From Pelagibacteraceae bacterium AG-464-B04 (GTDB lineage: Bacteria > Pseudomonadota > Alphaproteobacteria > Pelagibacterales > Pelagibacteraceae), in contig QCRZ01000005.1 of assembly GCA_003209225.1 (NCBI GenBank), positions 1-56,787 of the forward strand: a stretch of DNA of 56,787 nucleotides. Direction: 5' to 3'. The position numbers were made by a program, and so were the translations under genes. The notes under the pieces are model-generated. The model was not told where the DNA came from. It searched no databases and was given only the letters and a program-made list of their open reading frames with translations. Positions 18,874-23,397 of the stretch are shown here, piece after piece (position 1 is the first letter of the stretch; the number at the start of each line of letters is the position of its first letter).

Positions 18874-19788
18874 TTAGTGTTGCATTATTGCTTTTGCATA
18901 TTCTTCCGCTTTAAATAATTCCAAATCATTTTCATGTTCACCCAAACCTACGGCAATAATTGGTAAATTATATTTTTTTGCAACAGCTAGTAAAATACCT
19001 CCTTTTGCTGTTCCATCAAGTTTTGTCATAATCAAACCAGAAATTGGTGTAATTTTTTGAAATTCTTCAACTTGATTCAATGCACTCTGTCCCGTTGTTG
19101 CATCTAAAATTAATATTGTTTCATGAGGAGAGTGAGGATTAATTTTTTTTAAGACTTTTGATATTTTTTTAAACTCTTCCATTAAATTTTTTTTATTTTG
19201 CAGTCTTCCTGCGGTATCGATTAAAAGATAATCAATATTATTTTTTTTTGAATATTCTAACGCTTTAAAAGCTACAGAAGCTGGGTCAGAGCCAATTTCT
19301 GATTTAATAATTTTTGCGCCAATCTTTTTAGACCAAATTTCTAATTGTTCAATAGCAGCAGCTCGAAATGTGTCTGCCGCTGCAAAGACAACTTGTTTAT
19401 TGTTACTAGCTAATATTTTTCCCAATTTTCCAATTGTTGTAGTTTTGCCTACACCATTAACACCTGCGACTAATATAACTTTGGGTTTAATATTTTCTTC
19501 AATAAATAAATTTTTTTCAAGTGGTGACATTAAGTTTTTAATATAATTTTCAACAATTAAATTGATCTGATTTGTAATATTTTTTTTTGGATCAATTTTA
19601 ATTTGAGAAAAAATTTGTTTTAACTCCTTAGCGGCAATTACCCCAACATCAGATTGAATTAAAAAATCTTCTAGATCACCAAGTGTTTGTGAGTCGATTT
19701 TTTTATTAATAACTAAATTTTGAATACCAAAAGAAAAATTTTTAGAGCTTTTACTTAACCCAATTTTAAATTTTTCGAAAATTCCCAT
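18874..19788 (-). CDS. ftsY: Signal recognition particle receptor FtsY
   Basis: A 304-residue SRP-type GTPase that docks SRP-ribosome complexes at the membrane. The four-helix N domain covers about residues 1-95 and the G domain follows, with P-loop GVNGVGKTTT (109-118), the DTFRAAAIEQL insertion-box motif, DTAGRLQNK (G3) and TKLDGTAKGG (G4). It lacks the long acidic A domain of E. coli FtsY, as is common in alphaproteobacteria. Its partner gene ffh lies only 1 kb away on the opposite strand, so the two SRP-pathway GTPases flank dapF. Confidence 0.97.
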   Translation of the reverse strand: MGIFEKFKIGLSKSSKNFSFGIQNLVINKKIDSQTLGDLEDFLIQSDVGVIAAKELKQIFSQIKIDPKKNITNQINLIVENYIKNLMSPLEKNLFIEENIKPKVILVAGVNGVGKTTTIGKLGKILASNNKQVVFAAADTFRAAAIEQLEIWSKKIGAKIIKSEIGSDPASVAFKALEYSKKNNIDYLLIDTAGRLQNKKNLMEEFKKISKVLKKINPHSPHETILILDATTGQSALNQVEEFQKITPISGLIMTKLDGTAKGGILLAVAKKYNLPIIAVGLGEHENDLELFKAEEYAKAIMQH

Positions 19789-19793
19789 TTATT

Positions 19794-20618
19794 TTAAATA
19801 TTAATATCAATTTCTTTTATTTCAGAAACTTCACCTTTCATATTTATAGAGTTATTTTTATCTATAGTGACTGTTATTTTGCCAAGTTTAAATTCGATAT
19901 CCAATATATTATTTGTCAATTTTTTTGTAAAAGCAGCTACCGCAGTTGCGCAAGCTGCAGTTCCACAAGCCTTGGTCATTCCAGCTCCTCTTTCCCAAAC
20001 ATGAACTTTAATTAATTTTTTACTTTTTACTTCAGCTATTGTAATATTACATTTTTTTGGAAACAAAGCATGTGTTTCCAATTCAGGACCTATTTTTGAT
20101 AAATTGTAATTTTCTAATTTACTTACAAAAAAAATCAAATGTGGATTTCCAACACTTAAAGCATAACCTCCTTTCAAACTATTTCCCTCTTTGTCTAAAA
20201 TGACAATTCCTAAATTGGTGTTATCAATTTCTTTACTCAGAGGAATTTCTTTCCAGTTGAATTTTGGAGTTCCAATATTGGTTTCAACCATTTTAATTCC
20301 TAATATTTTTGATTTTAGTACACCACTTTCTGTTTTAAATTGAATTTCTTTTTTGTTTTTTTCTTTCGCAATAAAATAAGCTACACATCTAGTGCCATTA
20401 CCACACGCAGAGGATTTTCCCCCATCAGAATTGTAAAAATCTAATTCTGCGTCGTAATCGTTACTTTTATTAATAAAAATCAATTGGTCGCAGCCTACAA
20501 AACTTCTGTCTGAAATTTTTACAATTTCTTTTTTAGTTAAATAGGTTGTTTTTTTTCTATTATCAAAAATAACAAAATCATTTCCTAACCCATCCATTTT
20601 ATAAGCTTTTAAATTCAT
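19794..20618 (-). CDS. dapF: Diaminopimelate epimerase
   Basis: DapF converts LL- to meso-diaminopimelate for lysine and peptidoglycan synthesis. At 274 residues it has normal length. The two catalytic cysteines are Cys72 in SSACGNGTRC and Cys218 in TKACGTAACA, each in its conserved context. The N-terminal KMDGLGNDFVIFD is also diagnostic. It starts a minus-strand operon with ftsY (five-base gap), the usual dapF-ftsY neighbourhood in this class, although the MtaB-type methylthiotransferase often found between them is absent. Confidence 0.97.
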   Translation of the reverse strand: MNLKAYKMDGLGNDFVIFDNRKKTTYLTKKEIVKISDRSFVGCDQLIFINKSNDYDAELDFYNSDGGKSSACGNGTRCVAYFIAKEKNKKEIQFKTESGVLKSKILGIKMVETNIGTPKFNWKEIPLSKEIDNTNLGIVILDKEGNSLKGGYALSVGNPHLIFFVSKLENYNLSKIGPELETHALFPKKCNITIAEVKSKKLIKVHVWERGAGMTKACGTAACATAVAAFTKKLTNNILDIEFKLGKITVTIDKNNSINMKGEVSEIKEIDINI

Positions 20619-20643
20619 AGTATTTAGACTTTTAACTTATTTA

Positions 20644-20671
20644 TTGACTTTTTGAAGGTCTAATGTAATTT
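20644..20671 (+). promoter_or_regulatory. Candidate promoter of the ffh operon
   Basis: TTGACT (20644-20649) and TAATTT (20666-20671) are separated by 16 bases. Transcription would begin near 20676-20678, at the foot of the leader structure. An AT-rich background tempers this call. Confidence 0.35.
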
Positions 20672-20673
20672 AT

Positions 20674-20753
20674 GCGAACTTCCCGCAAAAAATAACAATT
20701 CTTTGCGGTGTCTTTGGAAACAAAGAGATCGACATTAGTCAGCGAGAGTTCGC
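20674..20753 (+). ncRNA. Structured leader RNA upstream of ffh
   Basis: Three perfect helices are visible. P1 pairs GCGAACT (20674-20680) with AGTTCGC (20747-20753). P2 pairs CCGCAAA (20683-20689) with TTTGCGG (20702-20708). P3 pairs TCTTTG (20711-20716) with CAAAGA (20721-20726), closed by a GAAA tetraloop. P2 and P3 sit side by side inside P1, giving a multibranch junction, and GAC/GTC (20731-20740) may add a short fourth stem. A competing pairing exists: CTAATGT (20660-20666) with ACATTAG (20732-20738), which crosses P1. It lies 31 bases before the ffh start and could be a cis-regulator. It does not look like SRP RNA or tRNA. RNA family collections may already list an ffh leader; I cannot check. 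Confidence 0.6.
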
Positions 20754-20784
20754 CCACTAGTGCGATTATTGCTGGAAATTGAAA

Positions 20785-22143
20785 ATGTTTGAAAATTTAA
20801 CAAATAAATTAGAAGAAATTTTTTCTTCTTTAAAAAAAGCTCCTTCGTTAAACGAAAAACAGGTTGACGAAGGTTTAAGAAGTATTAGGCAAGCTCTATT
20901 AGAAGCCGATGTAGCATTGCCTGTAGCGAAAAAGTTGATTGAAAACATCAAACCCAAGGCCATTGGAAAAGAAATTATAAGATCAACTACCCCAGGTCAA
21001 ATGATTGTAAAAATTGTTTATGATGAGTTAGTTCAATTGCTTGGTGATCAAAAATCAGAATTAAATTTAAATGCAGTTCCTCCAGTTTCTATTATGTTGG
21101 TTGGACTACAAGGCTCAGGTAAGACTACAACAGCAGCAAAATTAGCTCAATATCTTGAGAAGAATAATAAAAAGAAAGTCTTGCTGGTAAGTTTAGATAT
21201 TTATCGACCTGCAGCTCAAGAACAACTTAAAATTTTAGGAGAACAAAATTCTTTACAAACTTTGCCAATAGTTAAAGATCAATTGCCAAACGAAATTGCC
21301 AGGAGATCTTTAAGTGCAGCATCATTATCTGGTTCAGATGTAATCATTTTTGATACTGCCGGAAGAACTCAAATAGATCTTTCAATGATGAGTGAAATTA
21401 AAGAATTAAAATCAATTCTTAATCCATCAGAAATAGTATTAGTTGCTGATTCTTTAACAGGTCAAGTGGCTGTAGATATAGCTTCAGAATTTAAAAAAAC
21501 TGTTGATCTAACAGGAATAGTACTAACCAGAGCGGATGGGGATGGAAGAGGTGGAGCTGCTGTAAGTATGAAATTTACAACTGGGGTCCCAATAAAATTT
21601 TTAGGAGTAGGAGAAAAAATTGAAAATATTGAAATTTTTCATCCTGATAGAATAGCAAATAGAATTCTTGGGATGGGAGACATTGTTTCTCTTGTTGAAA
21701 AAGCTTCAGAAGATTTAGATCAAGATAAAATAAAAGAAACTGAAGAAAATTTAAAAAAAGGGAAATTTTCAATGCAAGATTATTTAAGTCAATTAAGACA
21801 AATGAAAAAAATGGGAGGTATGGAAGGAGTTTTATCGATGCTTCCTGGTGTTTCAAAAATAAAATCCCAGATGGATAATTCAGGCATTGATGAAAGCATA
21901 ATAAATAAAAATGAAGCAATAATTTTATCAATGACAAAAAAAGAAAGAAAAAATCCAAAAATTATTAATGGGTCAAGGAGAAAAAGAATTGCTAATGGTT
22001 CTGGAACTGACGTTGCCACTATCAATAAATTATTAAAACAATTTAAGTTAATGTCTGACATGATGAAAAAAATGTCTAAAGGTAACCAAAAAGGGATAGG
22101 GGACAAAGGAATTCCCCCAGAACTTTTTAATCAATTAAAATAA
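20785..22143 (+). CDS. ffh: Signal recognition particle protein Ffh
   Basis: A 452-residue SRP54 homologue that binds signal peptides and 4.5S RNA to target membrane proteins. The NG domain has P-loop [10 protein letters not shown] (107-116 region), [18 protein letters not shown] and [10 protein letters not shown]. The Met-rich M domain covers the last 130 residues ([15 protein letters not shown], then [13 protein letters not shown] for RNA contact, then [11 protein letters not shown]). I chose ATG 20785, with GGA eight bases upstream, over a TTG two codons earlier. It heads the ffh-rpsP-trmD-rplS operon behind a structured leader. Confidence 0.97.
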
Positions 22144-22156
22144 AAAAAGGAGAAAA

Positions 22157-22699
22157 ATGTTAAAAATAAGATTATCTATGGGTGGAGCAAAAAAAAGACC
22201 TGTTTACAAAATAGTCGTTGCAGATAGTAGATTTCCTAGAGATGGAAGATTTATAGAAAAATTGGGTTTTTTTAATCCTCTAGTTCCAAAAAATAAAAAA
22301 GATAGAATGAAAATTGAAATTGAGCGTGTTAAGCACTGGATCAAACAAGGAGCAAAACCAACAACAAGAGTTGCAAGAATTCTTGGAGAGGCTGAAATTA
22401 TTGCTATGCCAGTGCCCGGCAATAATCCTTTAAAAGCTGTACCAAAAAAGGACAGAAAAAAGATTGAAAAAGATAATAAAAAAGAAGTTGAACCTAAAAA
22501 AGTAGAAGAAAAAAAGGATCAAAAAATAGCTGAAAAAAAAGAAGTTGAACCTAAAAAAGTAGAAGAAAAAAAGGATCAAAAAATAGCTGAAAAAAAAGAA
22601 GTTGAACCTAAAAAAGTAGAAGAAAAAAAGGATCAACCAAAAGCAGAGACGGTAAATAAAAATCTAAAAGCAGATAAATCGGAAGGAGAAAAAAAATAG
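22157..22699 (+). CDS. rpsP: Ribosomal protein bS16 with long repeat-containing tail
   Basis: The first 85 residues are a normal bS16 ([20 protein letters not shown], then [14 protein letters not shown] and [16 protein letters not shown]), a small-subunit assembly protein. The family is usually 80-90 residues long, but this protein continues to 180 with a Lys/Glu-rich tail. Within it the 19-residue unit [19 protein letters not shown] recurs 2.7 times, encoded by exact 57-base tandem copies. The tail is predicted to be disordered and charged. AAAAAAGGAGAAAA just before the ATG is a strong ribosome-binding site. The downstream gene is trmD after eight bases, with no rimM between. Confidence 0.95.
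22484..22636 (+). repeat. 57-base exact tandem repeat inside rpsP
   Basis: Unit 1 is 22484-22540, unit 2 is 22541-22597 and a 39-base partial unit 3 is 22598-22636. The units are identical base for base, and 57 is divisible by three, so the reading frame is kept. Exact identity implies recent expansion or ongoing slippage/recombination. Copy number may differ between strains. Confidence 0.95.
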
Positions 22700-22707
22700 T
22701 TACAATA

Positions 22708-23397
22708 ATGTGGCAAGCTCAAGTATTTACATTGTATTCAGATATGTTCCCCGGTCCATTAAATAAAGGACTTTATGGAAAGGCCTTAATAAAAAAAATC
22801 TGGGATTTAAAAGTTGTAAATATAAGAGACTATGCAGAAGACAAACATAAAACAGTTGATGATACTCCATTCGGAGGTGGAAGTGGAATGCTTTTAAAAG
22901 CAGATGTATTGGCAAAGTCTATTGATCAAAATGTTAAGGAAGGTGAAAGAATTTTTTATCTATCACCAAAAGGCAAAAAATTTAATCAAAAAATTGCAAA
23001 AGAACTTTCGGAAGAAAAAACTATCAATTTAATATGCGGCCATTTTGAAGGAATTGATGAACGTATTTTAATCACAAGAAATATAGAAGAAATTAGTATT
23101 GGAGACTATATTTTGTCTGGAGGTGAATCGGCAGCTTTTGTTGTAATAGACAGCGTGCTAAGATTGCTTCCTGGAATACTTGGTAACGACGTATCAAAAA
23201 ATGATGAGAGTTTTGAAAATGGATTATTGGAATATCCTCAATATACAAAACCTCAAATTTGGGAGAAAGAAAGTGTCCCGGAAGTACTATTATCCGGGGA
23301 TCATGCGAAAATTAAAGACTGGCGTTTATCACAATCTGAAGCTATAACACGACGCCGAAGACCAGATTTATGGGAAAAATATAAAAAAAAGAAATAA
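22708..23397 (+). CDS. trmD: tRNA (guanine-37-N1)-methyltransferase TrmD
   Basis: TrmD methylates G37 next to the anticodon of several tRNAs using S-adenosylmethionine, which prevents frameshifting. At 229 residues it is of normal length. The trefoil-knot motifs are clear: [13 protein letters not shown] in the N-terminal part, [13 protein letters not shown], and [20 protein letters not shown] near residues 130-150, which holds the cofactor. The C-terminus has the usual [18 protein letters not shown]. It lies between rpsP and rplS as in most bacteria. Confidence 0.97.

Follow-up and report, generated by a model that had tools for sequence, protein, structure and literature searches.

The gene ffh heads an operon in a 56,787-nucleotide window from the Pelagibacteraceae bacterium AG-464-B04 (contig QCRZ01000005.1). 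The short leader in front of it raises two questions: is this RNA a folding switch, and which protein might it respond to? A preliminary description, made from the letters alone, had proposed a junction of perfect helices closed by a helix P1. A further helix crossing P1 was thought to form a pseudoknot or to allow two alternative folds. The leader is a real RNA, previously catalogued as RF01793 (the Rfam family "ffh"), and not a folding switch. As to its partner, gene context makes ribosomal protein S16 a reasonably good candidate.

The genes of the operon lie on the forward strand. They are ffh (20785..22143; TIGR00959, 572 bits), rpsP, which encodes S16 and is the proposed ligand gene (22157..22699; TIGR00002, 100 bits), trmD (22708..23397; NF000648, 300 bits) and rplS, which encodes L19 (23414..23920; TIGR01024, 140 bits). 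The preliminary description was right in seeing a structured leader of the ffh operon. There is no rimM; other alphaproteobacteria usually have this gene after rpsP and before trmD, and it is missing from the window operon (22699-22708). Upstream on the reverse strand are the divergent neighbour dapF (19794..20618; TIGR00652, 233 bits) and ftsY, encoding the SRP receptor (18874..19788; TIGR00064, 319 bits). The open reading frame list starts ffh at a TTG (20779); the conserved start is the ATG at 20785 (ATGTTTGA in all aligned SAR11 leaders). The distance of 31 bases given earlier, from 20753 to this ATG, is correct.

Fold of the leader

The helices were examined in an alignment of 61 distinct SAR11 leaders. 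All of the pairings listed in the preliminary description are present in the window sequence, and P2 and P3 are conserved, but P1 and the crossing helix exist as 7-mers only. The pairings do exist on paper: the 94 nt contain three perfect 7-mer pairings where 0.25 are expected from mononucleotide shuffles (P=0.019). In the relatives, P1 (20674-20680 with 20747-20753) is paired in 56% of cells and the crossing helix (20660-20666 with 20732-20738) in 68%, or 62% for both combined; neither has a doubly changed pair, and neither does better than shuffled controls. Compensatory changes, for which the preliminary description had proposed to test every helix in an alignment of relatives, are found in P2 and P3 and are absent from P1 and the crossing helix.

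The false P1 has a simple origin. The region first described stops at 20753, inside a further hairpin (P4), so P1 was built from half of P4; its right arm is shared with the inner stem of that hairpin. Folding of 20660-20753 alone gives the P1 junction. With the next 11-31 nt included P4 replaces P1, and the pair probability becomes 0.005 for P1 and about 0.98 for P4. The junction is thus an artefact of the end point.

The crossing helix has a different difficulty. A -35-like box (TTGACT, 20644..20649, forward strand), in which TTGAC is invariant in the 61 SAR11 leaders, and a -10-like box (TGTAAT, 20664..20669, forward strand; TATAGT, TATACT or TGTAGC in relatives) together resemble a promoter, and such a function is inferred. 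The spacer in the alignment is 14-15, and a generic promoter scan with a 16-18 spacer misses the pair because its spacer is short (14). Transcription would be expected to start near 20676. The left arm of the crossing helix (20660..20666, forward strand) looks like promoter spacer and -10 sequence and not like a conserved RNA arm. Since it coincides with these conserved promoter-like elements, it is probably left out of the transcript, a risk which the preliminary description had itself pointed out. The two-state switch is refuted by the alignment of relatives; we see practically no prospect that the junction and crossing helix describe the folding of this RNA.

What does fold is a row of three hairpins. 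The segment 20676-20790 is predicted to form P2, P3 and P4 at -32.8 kcal/mol (z -3.7). Jointly, these are paired in 99.4% of cells in the 61 SAR11 leaders, and ten of the pairs have changed on both sides; sliding the pairing never gives more than 49%. P2 (20683..20708, forward strand) has the 7-bp arms CCGCAAA and UUUGCGG at 20683-20689 and 20702-20708. It is paired in 98.1% of cells and two of its pairs are doubly changed. P3 (20711..20726, forward strand) consists of UCUUUG, a GAAA loop and CAAAGA, with 6-bp arms at 20711-20716 and 20721-20726; it is paired in 99.7% of cells, and all six pairs are doubly changed somewhere. A GGU/AUC pairing, present in 61 of 61 SAR11 leaders and nearly invariant, may extend P3 to 20707-20730. 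Elsewhere in the class, 17 of 40 other alphaproteobacteria have a P3-like hairpin that no more than 5 of 100 shuffles can equal.

The core of the element is P4 (20733..20762, forward strand). It has 7 bp, a C.C mismatch (20740/20755), an A.C (20741/20754), 4 bp and a 4-nt loop (20746-20749). All cells (100%) are paired in the SAR11 leaders, and 11 of 12 pairs are doubly changed among 47 diverse P4s from across the class. Among 83 distinct P4s, the C.C mismatch is kept in 81; the position next to it varies between A.C, C-G, G.U, U-A, G-C and A.A. P4 is followed by a single-stranded 3' tail (CGAUUAUUGCUGGA, 20763..20776, forward strand), in which individual positions are conserved as far as +13, where conservation stops. 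Among 63 distinct non-SAR11 elements, T reaches 90% at +4, +10 and +11 and G reaches 73% at +13.

Two other devices were considered for the leader and rejected. An intrinsic terminator or attenuator at P4 finds no match in a scan (0 terminator-like sites at 20550-20850), and the sequence after P4 is T-rich only from +3 to +5, then mixed. A pairing of GGUGUC with GACACY, which would oppose P4, is broken by GGUGCC variants; the T-to-C change covaries within P3 instead.

A catalogued RNA and its distribution

It had been asked whether this might be a known ffh leader, and comparison with the RNA families answers that it is. In an Rfam 15 scan of the window, RF01793 matches 20718-20770 on the forward strand with 54.6 bits against a gathering score of 35. 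This is the sole match above a gathering score in the whole window; other families give only chance-level matches in the leader. The ffh motif was described by Meyer et al. (2009) in 'Candidatus Pelagibacter ubique', Rhodobacterales, Sphingomonadales and Rhizobiales as one bulged hairpin with no function assigned (PMC2704228). The window element is the same RNA at the same site before ffh. Besides its score it has the same hairpin, P4, with a covarying bulged stem and two conserved C residues.

The element differs from the catalogued motif in extent and detail. The 52-nt Rfam model stops short of the tail's end; it also leaves out P2 and the greater part of P3, which are on its upstream side and covary in SAR11. 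On the evidence of the alignments P2, P3 and the 3' tail to +13 are parts of the element. The published 2x2 bulge is better read, given the variation among P4s, as one C.C mismatch that hardly ever changes, with a variable pair, often A.C, after it. The distribution also differs, as it reaches genomes without ffh, where the element precedes rpsP.

The element is present in 169 of the 197 genomes of the family to which the window's genome belongs. Among 397 genomes sampled from the phylum, every match to the model of the element (R1) is labelled as the same class. A second R1 match in one genome (G328, locus L329, 33 bits) has no operon genes within 5 kb; it is probably a chance match and was set aside.

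Genes downstream and an order without SRP

Distances and absences of genes are those given by tblastn and HMM searches that reached 5-20 kb from the element. The first gene after it is ffh in most genomes. For each of ffh, rimM, trmD and rplS there is some element locus where the gene is missing or displaced; rpsP follows the element wherever the locus has enough DNA. At one locus (L349, in the 1.5 Mb genome G659) rimM-trmD lies about 16 kb downstream of ffh-rpsP; the operon has apparently been split by insertion or rearrangement. HMM and BLAST searches of about 19 kb downstream find neither trmD nor rplS in L350 and L351. The same searches and distance give no rplS in L352 and L355, where the element and rpsP are present. 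The single exception for rpsP is L354 (G387, C222), where ffh stops mid-gene and is joined to unrelated opposite-strand genes. As the ffh-rpsP order is intact in two further genomes of that family, this is probably an assembly join.

The most informative case is an order in which SRP itself appears to be lost. It is represented by 18 genomes (the order of G235), all of one family, with no other genomes of the order in the set; the family was first singled out in the class-wide search for the element. These alphaproteobacteria (L141, L142, L143, L159-L177) have small genomes of 0.9-1.4 Mb. The placement of relatives other than named records rests on kinship labels. Two loci can be tied to such records: in L175 (AG-349-L06) and L177 (AG-343-O05), TrmD is identical over the aligned part to that of G590 and G581, respectively. 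Both are single-cell genomes entered as "uncultured PS1 clade bacterium", and both are without an SRP54 GTPase domain.

This domain, which would identify Ffh or FtsY, is above the cut-off in 0 of the 18 genomes of the order; the single sub-threshold match has 20.5 bits. The same search is positive in all 14 control genomes and in other alphaproteobacteria. The Ffh protein of the window, used as a query, finds nothing in five genomes of the order. An SRP RNA match is likewise seen in 0 of 18; this counts for less, because the model missed 3 of 14 controls. SecY is present in 14 of 18 genomes, including all six near-complete ones, so the loss of the SRP genes is not due to incompleteness. In a small literature search no report of SRP loss in this order was found, though it may have been reported already. 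These apparently free-living bacteria, without Ffh, FtsY or detectable SRP RNA, would offer a useful case for SRP-independent membrane protein targeting.

The element persists in this order. It is present in 14 of the 18 genomes and in five of the six near-complete ones; it lies directly before rpsP, with dapF divergent upstream as in SAR11 and no ffh between. Within the order P4 is 100% paired and has two doubly changed pairs. Beyond dapF, L142 and L143 carry a MiaB-like and a thioredoxin-like gene (named by eye from translations), with no ftsY.

Candidate ligands

Several readings of the element can be weighed against this gene context. Repression by Ffh or SRP of its own synthesis would be the natural one where ffh follows the element, as it does in most genomes, and a role in ffh regulation was suggested by Meyer et al. 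(PMC2704228). The same authors saw no resemblance to the Ffh-binding helix of SRP RNA (PMC2704228), and the leader has no Rfam SRP RNA match. A limited likeness lies in a GUCAG strand next to mismatches, which we take to be common to the element and to helix 8 of SRP RNA, the Ffh site. The main point is the order without SRP, where an RNA that required Ffh as its ligand should have decayed. The RNA persists there with compensatory changes, although Ffh and FtsY are gone and SRP RNA is not detected; Ffh is thus very probably not the required ligand. Of the ligands suggested in the preliminary description, a ribosomal protein still stands, while autoregulation by Ffh, set against an order which keeps the RNA after losing SRP, has become a quite remote explanation.

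Another ribosomal protein of the operon, L19, could be bound instead. The gene rplS is usually in the operon, and Firmicutes and Flavobacteria have known L19 leaders (PMC7247131); they are ribosomal-protein leaders, as the present element probably is. However, no Rfam match to an L19 family is found in the leader, and rplS is not found within about 19 kb downstream in L350, L351, L352 and L355 while the element and rpsP are there. Binding of L19 is therefore improbable, and RimM, TrmD and L19 alike are made unlikely as ligands by the gene context (L349, L350, L351, L352, L355 and the window). A different kind of reading is that no ligand is involved, and that the element is a structure for processing, stability or the loading of ribosomes, or else a small RNA in its own right. 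The family type of RF01793 in Rfam is sRNA, and ffh RNA is among the expressed RNAs in sRNA-seq of Bartonella (PMC7717549) and Mesorhizobium (PMC5596092). Termination or decay can nevertheless make a leader show up as a small RNA. The element keeps its place before the same operon, and the near-invariant C.C mismatch and position-locked tail suggest specific recognition. We regard a function without a ligand as unlikely but deserving of some weight.

S16 is the remaining candidate, because rpsP alone is always downstream and because ribosomal leaders usually bind a protein which they regulate (PMC7247131). It is reached by elimination, on the assumption that one of the operon's own genes encodes the ligand. 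For Flavobacteria, Eckert & Weinberg (2020, PMC7247131) proposed an S16 leader in front of rpsP-rimM, also with S16 predicted as the ligand by gene context. The likeness is one of gene context: that leader belongs to another phylum, and the alphaproteobacterial operon usually starts with ffh. As would be expected of an S16 leader, the element is conserved and structured, and it forms the 5' leader of an operon that includes the gene for the candidate ligand. We consider it fairly probable that the element is an autoregulatory leader with S16 as its ligand. Mimicry of 16S or 23S rRNA, which ribosomal leaders often show but need not, was also considered, with nothing convincing in E. coli: the R1 model has no match to an E. 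coli rrn operon at E<=10, and a local scan of E. coli rRNA for C.C hairpins gives no convincing site, both being weak tests.

The regulation itself, with S16 as the ligand, and its sign and mechanism can be proposed from the sequence comparisons as follows. S16 in excess of free 16S rRNA would bind P4, at the C.C mismatch, together with the tail, and operon expression would fall. A protein bound there in SAR11 would reach into the ribosome-binding region, since 8 nt separate the end of the tail (20776) from the ATG at 20785. Direct blocking of the start codon is not a general, or not the sole, mechanism, since the distance between the element (end of the matched model) and the start codon varies from about 6 to about 285 nt in other alphaproteobacteria.

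A wider reading, to which we would give an even chance, is that the name 'ffh motif' is a misnomer. The RNA would be an S16-sensing leader across much of Alphaproteobacteria, placing ffh under ribosomal-protein control, and a whole order of small-genome marine alphaproteobacteria, with single-cell genomes deposited as 'PS1 clade', would live without SRP while the leader still serves rpsP. The RNA has been known since 2009 without an assigned ligand, and the natural knock-out of ffh now points to one protein, S16, and shifts the probable role of the element from ffh towards rpsP. If this is true, many alphaproteobacteria set their SRP synthesis through feedback from a ribosomal protein, and secretion capacity would thereby be tied to the number of ribosomes.

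The S16 proteins have a feature of their own. In the window, S16 (22157-22699) carries a long, charged C-terminal tail with a repeated unit in about three copies. S16 of the order without SRP likewise ends in a repetitive Ala/Glu-rich tail, and such repeats may explain why contigs break just after rpsP in several of its genomes.
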